A stretch of 64,000 nt of DNA from Deltaproteobacteria bacterium (lineage in GTDB: Bacteria; Desulfobacterota; Binatia; HRBIN30; JACQVA1): NCBI GenBank assembly GCA_016178705.1, contig JACOST010000028.1, positions 580,951-644,950 of the forward strand, written 5' to 3'. Both the position numbers and the translations under genes were made by a program. Positions 20,725 through 23,923 of the stretch are shown here, piece by piece. Position 1 is the stretch's first letter. The number at the start of each line of letters is the position of its first letter. The notes under the pieces were generated by a model. It was not told the DNA's origin, ran no database searches, and saw only the letters and a list, made by a program, of their open reading frames with translations.

Positions 20725-20732
20725 CGGTTTGC
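20725..20732. repeat. Target-site duplication, left copy
   Basis: CGGTTTGC directly abuts the left end of the mobile element and is repeated exactly at 23916-23923. An 8-bp duplication fits an IS1-family transposase (8-9 bp). Confidence 0.9.
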
Positions 20733-20751
20733 GGTACTGTCCTAGTTAGGA
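20733..20751 (+). repeat. Left terminal inverted repeat of the IS1-type element
   Basis: ggtactgtcctagttagga; 16 of 19 bases match the reverse complement of 23897-23915. More TGTCCT copies in the same orientation follow near 20758 and 20780 and could be transposase-binding sites. Confidence 0.85.
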
Positions 20752-20930
20752 GCGTAGTGTCCTGATTTGAAAGCGCGGGTGTCCTAGTTTCGATCCGCCG
20801 CCGCGCTGGTCACCAGGTTGTGATCGGCGAAACAAAGGCGAACATCCATGCTTTGTTTCGCCGAACCAATGCCTAGTGCCCCGCATGCACTCAACCCCCT
20901 ACCTGTTGGGGTATGCGCAGAACTGCGCCC

Positions 20931-20959
20931 TTGACAACTGAGCATGGTCGAGGCACATT
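20931..20959 (+). promoter_or_regulatory. Putative promoter for the HARE-HTH-like gene
   Basis: TTGACA (perfect -35) at 20931-20936, 17 bp spacer, then CACATT at 20954-20959, which is a weak -10. It lies 18 bp before the ATG of the first passenger gene. Confidence 0.4.
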
Positions 20960-20977
20960 GCCCGTGGAGTTCATGCC

Positions 20978-21382
20978 ATGAAAGACATCGACAGTGAGAT
21001 TCGCTCTAAACGTGCGCTCATCACGCGACTAGAGGAAGAGGTCGCGGTTTTAGAGCGCGCACGTTTACTGCTGGTGGACGCCCATGCCGCCGATCCCATC
21101 AACGCACCAGGACCGCGCCGGCAGCGGAAAAAATGGACGCATCCGCGTGCTGGCAAGGTTGGTCCAAAATCACTCATGGGCCGGGCAATCGGCGTATTGC
21201 GTGAAGCTGGAACGCCGATGCACGCAAAGAAAATCGCAGAGCAAATTGAATCGCAGGGGATGAGCGTAAACCTCGCCTCCCTTGTTGGCGGACTTGCGCG
21301 CATGGCGAAAGATGGTCGTTTCGTTTGCCGGGATGCAAAACCCAACACCTTCGCGCTTTTGAAAGGAAAACCAATGAGCTAG
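20978..21382 (+). CDS. Putative DNA-binding protein, HARE-HTH-like C-terminus (IS passenger)
   Basis: A 134-residue protein with two parts. Residues 1-35 form a heptad-like helix (IRSKRALITRLEEEVAVLERARLLL), probably a coiled coil. Residues ~60-128 resemble a winged helix of the HARE-HTH type (AIGVLREAGTPMHAKKIAEQIE … LASLVGGLARMAKDGRFV … NTFALLK). HARE-HTH domains bind DNA in restriction, RNA polymerase and chromatin proteins. It sits at the left of the element, 45 nt before the tRNA, and so may be a regulator of the element. Not assigned to a named gene. Confidence 0.65.
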   Translation: MKDIDSEIRSKRALITRLEEEVAVLERARLLLVDAHAADPINAPGPRRQRKKWTHPRAGKVGPKSLMGRAIGVLREAGTPMHAKKIAEQIESQGMSVNLASLVGGLARMAKDGRFVCRDAKPNTFALLKGKPMS

Positions 21383-21390
21383 AAACAGTA

Positions 21391-21413
21391 CAGCCGCCTT
21401 GGCCAGGCGGCTG
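21391..21413 (+). terminator. Hairpin between passenger gene and tRNA
   Basis: Perfect 8-bp stem cagccgcc/ggcggctg with a 7-nt loop (21391-21398 and 21406-21413). No T-run follows, so it may be a terminator-like element or a processing structure in front of the tRNA. Confidence 0.45.
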
Positions 21414-21426
21414 TCTGCATACCCGT

Positions 21427-21520
21427 GGAGGGGTGGTTGAGCGGCCTAAAACACCCGACTTGGAATCGGGCGCTCCCTGATTAACCCAGGGGGCCACGCG
21501 TTCGAATCGCGTCCCCTCCG
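21427..21520 (+). tRNA. Class II serine-type tRNA with anticodon UGG (proline codons)
   Basis: Folds as a complete class II tRNA. Acceptor GGAGGGG/CCCCTCC is 7 perfect pairs; D-stem GTT/AAC with A14, G18G19 and A21; anticodon stem CCCGA/TCGGG is 5 pairs; 7-nt loop CTTGGAA (21459-21465) has U33 and positions 34-36 TGG. The variable arm has a 7-bp stem (21473-21479/21487-21493), followed by a T arm ACGCG-TTCGAAT-CGCGT. Discriminator is G73 at 21520 and CCA is not encoded. Long variable arm plus G73 is serine identity, which SerRS reads without the anticodon. The same arm with CTTGAAA would give ordinary tRNA-Ser(UGA); position 36 A-to-G makes it UGG. Expected to carry Ser and decode proline CCA and possibly other CCN codons. 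Confidence 0.85.
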
Positions 21521-21592
21521 TTACCCTAGAGGATGCCTGCTAGGCTCTCCCCAATCCACGGTCGAGAGTCTACCGAATCACGGGCCATCCTG

Positions 21593-21609
21593 CAACCGCA
21601 ATGCGGTTG
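21593..21609. other. Small perfect hairpin downstream of the tRNA
   Basis: caaccgc/gcggttg, 7-bp stem with 3-nt loop, in the 193-bp stretch between the tRNA and the ribbon-helix-helix gene. No T-run. The rest of that stretch shows no recognisable feature, and an open frame across it has no convincing start. Confidence 0.35.
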
Positions 21610-21713
21610 GAACTTGGGTTCGCCATGCGCAGGGTTAGAACCAACAGGACGGGTGCGTGTATGCGGCAGAAGAGAAGAGCCTAACCCGATCCCGCCGGCC
21701 GCGCTTGGAGTTT

Positions 21714-21899
21714 TCACGACTCCGAGCCGGTCGGCCGGTCGGGCGCGCTCATTCCCAGATTCAGCAGCCACGTTGAAAGGCCAAGCCCGCGATGCTTGGC
21801 TTTTTCAGTAAGCATGCGCTTTTGCTCGGCACTCGCGCGCACCGGGATTACCTCTTCCTTGCGTTCTTTCTGTGGCTTGCGCCGTTTCACGGTTGCCAT
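21714..21899 (-). CDS. Small ribbon-helix-helix-like protein (IS passenger)
   Basis: A 61-residue basic protein starting MATVKRRKPQKERKEEV. Its middle (EEVIPVRASAEQKRMLTEKAKHRGLGLSTWLLNLGM) follows the pattern of a short beta strand plus two helices seen in Arc/MetJ/MobC-type ribbon-helix-helix DNA-binding proteins such as mobilization or antitoxin proteins. A -10 TACAAT centred about 10 bp upstream puts the transcription start at or next to the ATG, so the mRNA may be leaderless. It diverges from the transposase and could repress both promoters. No toxin partner is seen. Confidence 0.6.
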   Translation of the reverse strand: MATVKRRKPQKERKEEVIPVRASAEQKRMLTEKAKHRGLGLSTWLLNLGMSAPDRPTGSES

Positions 21900-21905
21900 G
21901 GGGCT

Positions 21906-21934
21906 ATTGTATGCACAAAAGAAATACAATGCAA
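21906..21934 (-). promoter_or_regulatory. Promoter of the ribbon-helix-helix gene with an operator-like inverted repeat
   Basis: On the minus strand: -35 TTGCAT (21929-21934), 17-bp spacer, -10 TACAAT (21906-21911). The arms ATTGTAT at 21906-21912 and ATACAAT at 21924-21930 form a perfect 7-bp inverted repeat spanning the spacer, a plausible autoregulatory operator. Confidence 0.6.
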
Positions 21935-21949
21935 GCTCAAATAAACCGC

Positions 21950-21978
21950 TTGACTTGTGCGCTTAATGTGTATACATT
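21950..21978 (+). promoter_or_regulatory. Putative transposase promoter
   Basis: TTGACT at 21950-21955, 17-bp spacer, TACATT at 21973-21978. A palindromic TGTATACA overlaps the -10 and recalls the ATTGTAT/ATACAAT arms of the divergent promoter. A 145-nt leader precedes the transposase ATG, which has AGGAG 7 nt upstream. Confidence 0.5.
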
Positions 21979-22123
21979 AGCCGTATGGTTGATCGGTATT
22001 CGGAACAGAGCCCCGCCCAAGGTTGGAGCCTTGAGCGAGGCCACAACCCCACGCGACGTGAGTCACGCAAGGATGCTGGGAGCGCCAAGCGTAGCACGTC
22101 GGTGGGCAACGTAGGAGCCCGCA

Positions 22124-23050
22124 ATGAACGTGCTGTCGCTTGAGCAGCAAGCCCTAGTCATCGGCGCACTCACCGAAGGGTGCGGCATCCGCACCGTCGA
22201 ACGTCTCACCGAAATTCACAGGGACACTGTGATGCGGCTCGGCGTCCGTATCGGCGAAGCGTGCCGCAACCTGCACGACGCGATGATGCGCGACCTACAG
22301 GTGAACACCATCGAACTGGACGAGCAGTGGGCGTTTATTGGGAAGAAGCAGAAACAGGTGAAGAACGGCGACGCGCCCGAACTCGGCGACGTGTGGCTGT
22401 TCGTGGCGCTGGCCGCAAATCAGAAAGCCGTCATCAGCTATCGCGTCGGCAAGCGCACCAGCGAGAACACCCGGCACTTGGTCAACGATCTACGTTTCCG
22501 CATTCTGAACCGGCCACAGATCACGGCGGACGGGTACGCGCCATACATCGGCGCGATTGATCGCGCGTTCGGCGTTGATGTCGACTTTGCGATTCTCGAA
22601 AAGCAGTACCAAGCGCCGATCGCGGCCGATGCCGCTCATCGCTACAGCCCCAGCTCGATAAGAGCCGTCGAAAAGACGGTCATTCGCGGCAACCCTGACG
22701 AGGACAAGATCAGCACCAGCTATGTCGAGCGGTTCAACCTGACGACGCGGATGCAGATGCGGCGATTCACGCGGTTGACCAACGGTTTCTCAAAGACGCT
22801 GCGCAATCACTCGGCGGCAATCAGCTTGCAGGTGGCCTTCTACAACCTGTGCCGCGTTCACGAGACGTTGCGTTGCACACCGGCGATGGCGCTCGGCGTG
22901 ACGAATCACATTTGGACGATCGGCGAGTTGATCGAAGCGGCGACCAGCGCGCCCGTGGCACCGGAGAATCCACCGCCACCGCCGACCACGATGCGGCCGG
23001 GCTACCGTCCGGTGCAGCTTAGAGTTATTCCCGGCGGTCGGATGAGCTAG
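22124..23050 (+). CDS. IS1-family DDE transposase
   Basis: A 308-residue transposase. N-terminal helix-turn-helix (GCGIRTVERLTEIHRDTVMRLG), then the catalytic block: ELDEQWAFIGKKQKQ with Asp66, ITADGYAPYI with Asp136, and SYVERFNLTTRMQMRRFTR with Glu202, followed by the family's RNHSAAISLQVAFYNLCRVHETL. Single reading frame, unlike E. coli IS1 which needs frameshifting. The ATG at 22124 follows TAGGAGCCCGCA. It cuts and joins at the GGTACTGTCC ends. The membrane passenger converges on it with a 4-nt overlap. The gene looks intact, so the element may be mobile. Confidence 0.93.
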   Translation: MNVLSLEQQALVIGALTEGCGIRTVERLTEIHRDTVMRLGVRIGEACRNLHDAMMRDLQVNTIELDEQWAFIGKKQKQVKNGDAPELGDVWLFVALAANQKAVISYRVGKRTSENTRHLVNDLRFRILNRPQITADGYAPYIGAIDRAFGVDVDFAILEKQYQAPIAADAAHRYSPSSIRAVEKTVIRGNPDEDKISTSYVERFNLTTRMQMRRFTRLTNGFSKTLRNHSAAISLQVAFYNLCRVHETLRCTPAMALGVTNHIWTIGELIEAATSAPVAPENPPPPPTTMRPGYRPVQLRVIPGGRMS

Positions 23051-23766
23051 CGTTCCGAGTTGCCGTTGTGTGGCTCGTCCTTGTACGCATCTCGTGGTCC
23101 GATCCAGATGGACCATTCGTGCTCCTGGGTTGGCGCGTCAGAGCTAGCGGCATAAACTGGCTGAAATGACGCCTGCAATTCTCGCAAGAACTTCTCTGCG
23201 GTGGCGCTGTCGCTGGTGTTTCGCGTATAGGCGAACCAGGTCCCCTTGATCATCGGGTTGTTTTGACGCTGCTGCACCACGTCCCAACCCGATTTGGTGA
23301 AGACCTCAACGAAGTCTCTCGCGAAACCCTCCGCCTCGCGCGTGCCATACCAGACCACTCTCACTTTGGGCGGTGCACAACTCTTTTGGGGGGTGCATTC
23401 CATGGTGAGCTTGATAGTAAGCGCCTCGCGCAGGTCCGGATCAAGGCGACGATCAAAGGGCGGATGGATCGCGCGGCTTGCCGACCAACACGATACAGTG
23501 AACCAAAGCACGCCCAAAAACAGAGATGCGGCCGCCATAGGATGCCTGCGACCAGCAATCCAGACAGCTATGAGTCCGCCAACGCCGACGAGAAACACCG
23601 CTAGCAATAGATATTGAGGGTCGACAATCGCCGTCATTTCGCGCACCCATGCGAACGCTTTCGTCCATTGGTATACGTCCAGATACTCCAAAATTTTGAG
23701 GAACGGGGGTATGGCTGCTGCGAACCCAGACGCGGCGAGAAGCGAGACCTTCCAGTGCGGTGACAT
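23047..23766 (-). CDS. Membrane protein of unknown function (IS passenger)
   Basis: A 239-residue protein. Residues ~1-105 include about three hydrophobic helices (segments around SLLAASGFAAAIPP, YLLLAVFLVGVGGLIAVWIAG and MAAASLFLGVLWFTVSCW). Residues ~110-239 form a soluble domain with two close cysteines (CTPQKSC). The soluble part (VRVVWYGTREAEGFARDFVEVFTKSGWDV) has an alternating beta/alpha look, similar in style to small sensory or SPOR-like modules, but I do not recognise it. It lies in the right half of the element, tail to tail with the transposase. Role in the element unknown. Confidence 0.6.
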   Translation of the reverse strand: MSPHWKVSLLAASGFAAAIPPFLKILEYLDVYQWTKAFAWVREMTAIVDPQYLLLAVFLVGVGGLIAVWIAGRRHPMAAASLFLGVLWFTVSCWSASRAIHPPFDRRLDPDLREALTIKLTMECTPQKSCAPPKVRVVWYGTREAEGFARDFVEVFTKSGWDVVQQRQNNPMIKGTWFAYTRNTSDSATAEKFLRELQASFQPVYAASSDAPTQEHEWSIWIGPRDAYKDEPHNGNSER

Positions 23767-23896
23767 TCACTACCCCATGACGGACAATGGCCGCTCGTGT
23801 CAACCGATAGTGCGGAGAGTCCGGAGACAATAGGCGACAGGCCAAGCGAGGAAATGAAGGCTTGCATCGGAGTGTCCTAGTTCCCCGCCCTCAGTG

Positions 23897-23915
23897 TCCT
23901 ACTTCGGACAGTACC
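23897..23915 (-). repeat. Right terminal inverted repeat of the IS1-type element
   Basis: Read on the minus strand it is ggtactgtccgaagtagga, matching the left end at 16 of 19 positions. Forward TGTCCTA copies at 23873 and 23895 lie just inside it. Confidence 0.85.
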
Positions 23916-23923
23916 CGGTTTGC
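23916..23923. repeat. Target-site duplication, right copy
   Basis: CGGTTTGC, identical to 20725-20732 and directly next to the right end of the element. Confidence 0.9.

Follow-up and report, generated by a model that had tools for sequence, protein, structure and literature searches.

To our knowledge, natural mistranslating tRNAs have been found in few bacteria. SerRS ignores the anticodon of its tRNA, and seryl- and leucyl-tRNA synthetases alike do not need it. Among the closest described systems are allo-tRNAs, tRNA-ProX and an engineered yeast tRNA. Allo-tRNAs are serine-type tRNAs with non-serine anticodons, which together span 35 of the 64 codons; their defining feature is a 12-bp branch divided 8/4 or 9/3, and in E. 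coli some of them deliver Ser to other codons (PMC7609411). According to a review, the UAU type of allo-tRNA that Mukai et al. linked to a transposon had broken pairs and could not serve in E. coli translation, one allo-tRNA(UAU) pseudogene overlaps a transposon ORF, and a link with transposable elements was suggested (PMC7609411). The tRNA-ProX group (ProA, ProN and ProT) of Streptomyces and Kitasatospora combines a Pro body with an Ala, Asn or Thr anticodon, carries A33 and A34, and is encoded beside a ProRS variant (PMC11415595, PMC10365949); 'transpos' does not occur as a word stem in PMC11415595. In yeast, an engineered tRNA-Ser(UGG) causes Ser to be incorporated at Pro codons, and it is lethal in any but a weakened form (PMC6827378). 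In the open-licence literature searched, no description was met of IS elements that regularly include tRNA genes or of a regular linkage of such genes to IS1-family transposases.

The window analysed here is a 64,000-nt stretch of the genome of a Deltaproteobacteria bacterium (GCA_016178705.1, contig JACOST010000028.1, positions 580,951 to 644,950, forward strand). The only tRNA found in it by ARAGORN lies at 21426-21521(+) with the anticodon TGG, and the only Rfam match at gathering score is a tRNA at 21427-21520(+) (54.6 bits, E 5.6e-09). This gene is enclosed by a 3,183-bp IS1-family element (20733-23915), the features of which are collected in Table 1.

Table 1. Features of the tRNA-bearing element (positions are those of the window).
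Feature	Position	Strand	Basis or remark
Target-site duplication, left copy, 8 bp, CGGTTTGC	20725..20732	.	Direct repeat
Left terminal inverted repeat	20733..20750	.	15/18 match right end
TGTCCTAGTT-like end repeats, left, two copies	20736-20748, 20778-20790	.	
HARE-HTH ORF, 134 aa	20978..21382	+	PF05066, 26.4 bits, cut-off 25.9
10-bp hairpin in the gap between HTH ORF and tRNA	21390..21414	.	Terminator-like on minus strand
Class II tRNA, Ser body, anticodon UGG	21427..21520	+	ARAGORN, Rfam, fold, nearest neighbours
NikA-like ORF, 61 aa, in the gap between tRNA and transposase	21717..21899	-	PF21983, 27.5 bits, cut-off 27
Sigma-70-like promoter site, upstream of transposase and downstream of tRNA	21950..21978	+	Consensus match only, 9/12
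IS1-family DDE transposase, 308 aa	22124..23050	+	PF03400, 45.9 bits, cut-off 24.1; frame intact
239-aa ORF	23047..23766	-	No Pfam match over cut-off, no PADLOC match
TGTCCTAGTT-like end repeats, right, two copies	23871-23883, 23893-23905	.	
Right terminal inverted repeat	23898..23915	.	15/18 match left end
Target-site duplication, right copy, CGGTTTGC	23916..23923	.	Perfect 8-bp match to left

The ends of the element read GGTACTGTCC...GGACAGTACC, and the 18-nt ends compared were GGTACTGTCCTAGTTAGG and GGTACTGTCCGAAGTAGG; the same end-finder gave 0 calls in 79 control loci. A DDE_Tnp_IS1 transposase, terminal inverted repeats and a target duplication of 8-9 bp are features of the IS1 family and are all present, the duplication here being 8 bp long. 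The element differs from IS1-family insertion sequences in its single-ORF transposase, TGTCC-repeat ends, extra genes and tRNA gene. The proposal, made from the sequence-only reading, that the tRNA is carried by a mobile element is thus upheld by the transposase, the matched ends and the CGGTTTGC direct repeats on either side of it. The G+C content is 58.6% in the element as compared with 64.4% in the window. The HARE-HTH ORF ends 44 bp upstream of the tRNA, and ORFs resembling it by eye are present in the related elements L184 and L214; the PF05066-type match in L214 scores 16.3 bits, under the cut-off, and the L184 ORF has no Pfam match. As four terminator-like sites were found with 3.5 expected, the call of the hairpin in front of the tRNA is weak, and three sigma-70-like sites were found with 1.2 expected. 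In a search of the host genome with the transposase, the next matches were at most 47% identical, apart from two short pieces at 60-61%.

The tRNA is 94 nt long, with TGG at 21461-21463. All positions of the acceptor stem (7/7), anticodon stem (5/5) and T stem (5/5) form Watson-Crick pairs, and the variable stem folds as eight pairs, one being G-U. Hence the lengths first given for the acceptor, anticodon and T stems are correct and that given for the variable stem, seven, is not. The predicted fold has a minimum free energy of -44.6 kcal/mol (z -2.74), which was equalled by one of 200 shuffles. G1-C72, U34 and A37 are found, together with G73, U33 and the anticodon loop CTTGGAA, the last three as had been reported. 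CCA is not encoded, as is the case for most host tRNAs. An ordinary tRNA-Ser(UGA) had been described as having the same anticodon stem, CCCGA/TCGGG. The tRNA-Ser(UGA) of the host does not share it; what the two tRNAs have in common is the acceptor stem GGAGGGG/CCCCTCC, and in the window tRNA the sequences of the T stem, the anticodon stem and the variable arm depart from those of the host tRNA with their pairing intact. Stems that have changed in sequence still pair, and the fold has therefore been kept.

The amino acid class of the body was assigned with the anticodon masked, by a nearest-neighbour vote against 1,259 other tRNAs. In leave-one-out trials this vote was correct for 121 of 150 tRNAs overall and for 42 of 44 Ser, Leu and Tyr tRNAs. 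All seven nearest neighbours of the window tRNA are tRNA-Ser and none is tRNA-Pro. It has the features of a tRNA-Ser body that were considered, namely a long variable arm, G73 and a Ser-type acceptor stem. tRNA-Pro typically has C1-G72, A73, a short variable loop and G37, and G1-C72, G73 and A37 are not proline features. The window tRNA has G1-C72 and G73 in place of C1-G72 and A73, and a long arm and A37 in place of the short loop and G37; among the proline features considered, only the NGG anticodon, as UGG, is present. The description of a class II serine-type tRNA with a proline UGG anticodon is therefore supported by the ARAGORN and Rfam calls, the unanimous vote, G73 and the acceptor stem.

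Its host has a 6.1-Mb genome, 98% complete, with 46 tRNA matches, all of which were read. They include normal tRNA-Ser for GCT, GGA, TGA and CGA and normal tRNA-Pro for TGG, CGG and GGG; the window tRNA is therefore an extra copy. Among the same 46 matches tRNA-Ile(GAU) and tRNA-Ala(UGC) are absent, perhaps lost along with an unassembled rRNA operon. Relatives of the window tRNA were not found in 57 other genomes, except for T-arm matches of 22-24 nt in two, and that search gave no relative of this particular element close enough to show whether its tRNA stays paired or decays. A search of plasmid DNA with 21380-22120 gave no match.

Natural tRNAs in which body and anticodon disagree are a known kind, and what sets the window tRNA apart is its 7/5 body and the repeated linkage to transposases described below. 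It resembles allo-tRNAs in having Ser identity with a non-Ser anticodon, and both UAU and ochre types occur among allo-tRNAs and among the element tRNAs (PMC7609411). It differs from them in its 7/5 split, which falls outside the 8/4 or 9/3 definition, in the recurrent linkage to IS1-family transposases, and in that element tRNAs have Leu and Arg bodies too. Unlike the allo-tRNA(UAU) described, it has complete pairing and lies between element ends that were mapped. With tRNA-ProX, the likeness is that of natural bacterial tRNAs with conflicting body and anticodon; the window tRNA is the reverse case, with a Ser body, a Pro anticodon, U33 and U34, and no synthetase was recognised by Pfam among the four larger ORFs of its element. 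The engineered yeast tRNA-Ser(UGG) has the same pairing of body and anticodon, whereas the window tRNA is natural, mobile and bacterial.

A second tRNA-bearing insert is present in the same genome (L167 5491-8716, contig C33), with ends matching at 14/18 and a 9-bp duplication. Here, a SWIM/DDE_Tnp_1 transposase lies beside a class II tRNA that has G73, the anticodon GUA (Tyr) and a body voted Ser by 7/7. The T loop of this tRNA, TCCAAAT, lacks the usual T55. At L300, where the transposase is a 70% relative of that of L167, a degenerate tRNA-like sequence was seen by eye upstream and there is no ARAGORN call.

The sequence-only reading had proposed a search of other genomes for IS1-linked class II tRNAs with UGG. 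Many mismatched tRNAs came to light; a second UGG was not among the 18 element tRNAs counted below. At class level, the window transposase matched 22 of 148 genomes, the host included (E <= 1e-40), and the 28 new loci gave three tRNAs, every one with an anticodon that conflicts with its body: GCA on a Ser body (L186/L214), CCC on a Leu-like body (L203/L222) and UGC on a class II body (L205/L223). The phylum-level search matched 26 of 395 genomes, host and class included (E <= 1e-50), and added 40 wider loci. Their tRNAs have GCU or ACU anticodons on class I bodies (L263, L273 and L299), UAU on a Ser body (L272), UGC without G3-U70 (L275) and UUA (L276). Ordinary-looking tRNAs were seen beyond the mapped ends at L284 (a Sec tRNA) and L289, and more than 3 kb from the transposase at L278, where no ends were found. 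From IMG/VR, whose contigs in the transposase set need not be viral, 79 loci were obtained (the best 80 of 175 relatives, one merged), 39 of them with mapped ends. They include UCC on an Arg body (L316), UUA on Leu bodies (L353, L377 and three near-copies of L377), GCU on a class I body (L370), and the anticodons AGU (L354), UAU (L359) and UAC (L307); to the upstream tRNAs of L305 and L308 ARAGORN assigned no triplet anticodon. Ordinary-looking tRNAs lie beyond the mapped ends at L305, L337 and L345, and others at L361, L363, L366 and L372, where no ends were found. The 1,323-bp L353 element, which has a target duplication, contains the tRNA, a small ORF overlapping it and the transposase. In this element, which holds little else, the tRNA thus moves as a companion of the transposition module. 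At L351, a Leu-like class II tRNA with the anticodon GAA (Phe), at 1142-1223, lies directly downstream of an IS1-type transposase. No tRNA-bearing element was found in the four plasmid loci examined (27 plasmid records were matched by the transposase) or by a single-protein transposase search of viral contigs, and such a search of genome contigs gave two loci with a tRNA in neither.

The position of the tRNAs was counted over IS1-type transposase loci. Fragments L226, L294, L295 and L297 were left aside. From 138 loci, 134 with a transposase start were retained, and removal of nine near-duplicates left 125, two of which (L278 and L351) have less than 400 nt of upstream sequence. ARAGORN found 19 tRNAs within 1,500 nt upstream of the transposase, of which 16 lie 56-164 nt from it on the transposase strand; the tRNA density of the host predicts about 0.08 for a total of 125 x 168 nt. 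The other three are the window tRNA (602 nt), L359 (371 nt) and L214 (909 nt, opposite strand), and at 109 of the 125 loci ARAGORN called no tRNA 56-164 nt upstream. In the window, a minus-strand ORF and a promoter-like site lie between the tRNA and the transposase some 600 nt downstream, so this tRNA departs from the usual arrangement. A count of strict T-arms on the transposase strand gave 22 within 200 nt upstream and 13 over the following 1,300 nt, as compared with 1 and 17, respectively, on the other strand. A looser search for tRNA folds gave matches in 28 of 125 leaders, at least four of which look like chance by eye, as against 2.4 in shuffles and two in a control zone further up. Mapped ends and target duplications enclose ten of the 16 near tRNAs (L222, L272, L273, L276, L299, L305, L307, L308, L316 and L353, the ends of L307 and L308 being weaker at 13/18 and 12/18), and for the remaining six no ends were found.

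For anticodon counts, the 19 upstream tRNAs were reduced by L305 and L308, which have no triplet anticodon, and L167 was added, giving 18 element tRNAs; the downstream GAA tRNA of L351 is outside this set. A class conflict was defined as a class II body with the anticodon of a class I amino acid, or a class I body with a Ser anticodon. Such conflicts occur in 10 of the 18 element tRNAs and in 82 of 1,252 other tRNAs in the loci, a comparison set that leaves out unclear, Sec and Pyl types and of which 1,193 come from viral pattern-scan loci aimed at Ser-like tRNAs. Of the 82, 44 are short Leu tRNAs, nearly all from viral-scan loci and with the 80-nt Leu(UAG) of the host among them, which were counted as conflicts because of the 82-nt class cut-off and are thus an artefact. 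A stop (UAA) anticodon is present in three of the 18 and in none of the 1,252. Five element tRNAs have neither a class conflict nor a stop anticodon: L167, L316 (Arg by 7/7 votes, Gly anticodon), L307 (Gln by 5/7, Val anticodon), L275 (mixed votes, Ala anticodon) and L354 (mixed votes, Thr anticodon). Votes for the anticodon's own amino acid were given only to L299 (Ser 2/7) and L359 (Ile 1/7), and each of the seven bodies with a unanimous vote (four Ser, two Leu and one Arg) bears a foreign anticodon. U33 and a purine at position 37 are each present in 17 of the 18, although the tRNA finder may favour U33. Class II tRNAs make up 9 of the 18, as compared with 10 of 44 ordinary host tRNAs. In a control with PF01609, comprising 16 loci including L167, the other 15 DDE_Tnp_1 loci yielded a single ordinary tRNA-Ala with G3-U70, the control being small; one with an IS5 ORF gave only two loci.

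It is tentatively suggested that the window tRNA would be a working missense tRNA, charged by SerRS and extra to the host set, and that it would belong to the IS1-family element's own module rather than being freight. It would be transcribed and then matured by host RNase P, RNase Z and the CCA-adding enzyme. Host SerRS, blind to the anticodon, would charge it with serine, and it would compete with host tRNA-Pro(UGG), with some CCA codons read as Ser. The role would be low-level missense suppression, and nonsense suppression in sister elements; our best guess is that the selected benefit would lie in altered decoding of host or competitor proteins and not of the element's own transposase. This missense reading is favoured because the stems are kept, the bodies lean to Ser and Leu, and in none of the element tRNAs does the anticodon clearly match the body. 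Against it, a strong Pro-to-Ser mistranslator should be toxic, 136 CCA codons being present among the 919 Pro codons of 34 long window ORFs, and the report that a transposon-linked allo-tRNA(UAU) was unusable in E. coli translation (PMC7609411) also counts. The window tRNA lies outside the usual place, and most of the 125 loci lack a near tRNA. The degenerate tRNA-like folds of some relatives are unlikely to decode and are better suited to a role of the fold only. Such a role is the main rival, possible but doubtful: a tRNA shape would be kept at the border of the transposase, for cleavage by RNase P and RNase Z or for stopping outside transcription so that the transposase is shielded from read-through, and the anticodon, being irrelevant, would drift. 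The common strand and narrow distance at 16 loci, the excess of partly degenerate folds in the leaders, the T-rich tracts after several tRNAs, a group with a UUAC loop and the allo-tRNA(UAU) reported as inactive in E. coli translation (PMC7609411) all fit this. It accounts less well for the promoter-like sequence seen by eye between complete tRNAs and the gene, which would place the tRNA outside that mRNA, or for the distant window tRNA and the L214 tRNA on the other strand. Moreover, drift of one or two bases should leave some clear matches of anticodon and body, of which there are none in 18, and U33 and the purine at 37 have been kept, with the reservation about the finder given above.

Reading of the element's own genes by the tRNA, such that these would need it to be read correctly, had been put forward as a purpose and is very improbable in spite of the tight linkage to the transposase. 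The CCA codons of the window transposase are at residues 131, 140, 283 and 285, where homologues have Val/Ile/Pro, Ala/Pro or poorly conserved tails, and none is at a Ser column. AGC/AGU codons encode conserved Ser residues at the loci with GCU or ACU anticodons (L263, L273 and L299), the conserved Cys47 of L214 (GCA) is encoded by UGC and the conserved Ala256 of L275 (UGC) by GCA, and the L222 transposase lacks the GGG codon. The transposases of L276, L353 and L377 have no internal in-frame UAA, though their tRNAs read UAA. As far as these alignments go, the codons concerned appear to keep their standard meaning at conserved residues, and recoding of the transposases is not supported. An improbable proposal is that a foreign anticodon arm on an unusual body would absorb or resist anticodon nucleases or tRNA-targeting toxins, as a decoy or counter-defence. 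The diversity of anticodons is what a decoy set might have, Vsr- and Dcm-like ORFs lie between the ends of the related element L184 (1391-6632, by eye), a Shedu gene is near the L227 transposase (no ends found), and a RES/Xre pair is just beyond a mapped end of L230; PADLOC, however, gave no match for three proteins of the window element, and no nuclease was noticed as a partner of the tRNAs. There is a similarly small chance that the tRNA is a passenger, a tRNA-Ser gene captured long ago and now drifting. Gene content does differ among the elements and the window tRNA is away from the transposase-proximal position, but its stems remain paired despite a sequence unlike that of host tRNA-Ser, mismatched tRNAs recur in other elements, and the small control of 15 other DDE_Tnp_1 loci gave only the ordinary Ala tRNA. 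Least probable of all, with hardly any likelihood, is genuine tRNA-Pro identity, by which ProRS would charge this long-armed tRNA. G35 and G36 are ProRS determinants and are supplied by the UGG anticodon, and class II UGG tRNAs with C1-G72 and A73 were seen by eye in IMG/VR contigs L094, L097 and L101; the ends, A37 and neighbours of the window tRNA argue against this identity.

These long-armed viral-contig tRNAs, which from their sequences are probably charged with proline, came from a scan for class II tRNAs with CTTGGAA. Among the matches listed there were at least 119 pattern-bearing ARAGORN tRNAs: 111 normal Ser(GGA), seven called Pro(UGG) and one without a triplet; one further match, L133, was not called. 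Inspection by eye of the seven Pro(UGG) calls listed showed C1-G72/A73 ends in L094, L097, L101 and probably L088, and suggested that L103, L110 and L134 are Ser(GGA) tRNAs called wrongly. Identities being mixed, the CTTGGAA pattern is not specific.

On a wider scale, it is conceivable but unlikely, judging by the loci compared, that a recurrent IS1-type branch, with at least one IS5-like element, would carry a body-mismatched tRNA in its transposition module, bringing suppression to new hosts and altering the code at low level. If transposons regularly carry mismatched tRNAs, code-altering tRNAs can move between species, which would bear on the origin of codon reassignments, on stress tolerance via mistranslation and on transposon control. 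The survey provides a set of natural tRNAs that combine Ser, Leu or Arg bodies with foreign anticodons and are open to individual study, and it places the transposon link earlier proposed for allo-tRNA(UAU) in a definite context.

The only internal stop in a tRNA-bearing transposase is a UGA at codon 47 of L272, where nearly all relatives have a conserved Cys. It does not fit the UAU anticodon of the L272 tRNA, and it may mark a broken gene or, with lower likelihood, selenocysteine.

In the group with complete tRNAs, promoter-like sequence seen by eye separates the tRNA from the transposase, and T-rich tracts follow several of the element tRNAs. A location of complete tRNAs inside the leader of the transposase mRNA was considered and dropped, given these promoter-like sequences between tRNA and gene. 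A loop with UUAC, located 35-60 nt upstream of the start codon, is common to one group of tRNA-like folds. UUAC stands at the would-be anticodon loop in the leaders L266, L270, L276, L279 and L309 and, by eye, in L305-L308, L310 and L218, and these folds may constitute a separate regulatory structure. By eye, a palindrome of the type GCTTGA...CTCAAGC overlaps the promoter-like sequence in L263, L272, L275, L353, L370, L377 and others, and is also present near the left end of L353; it looks like an operator.
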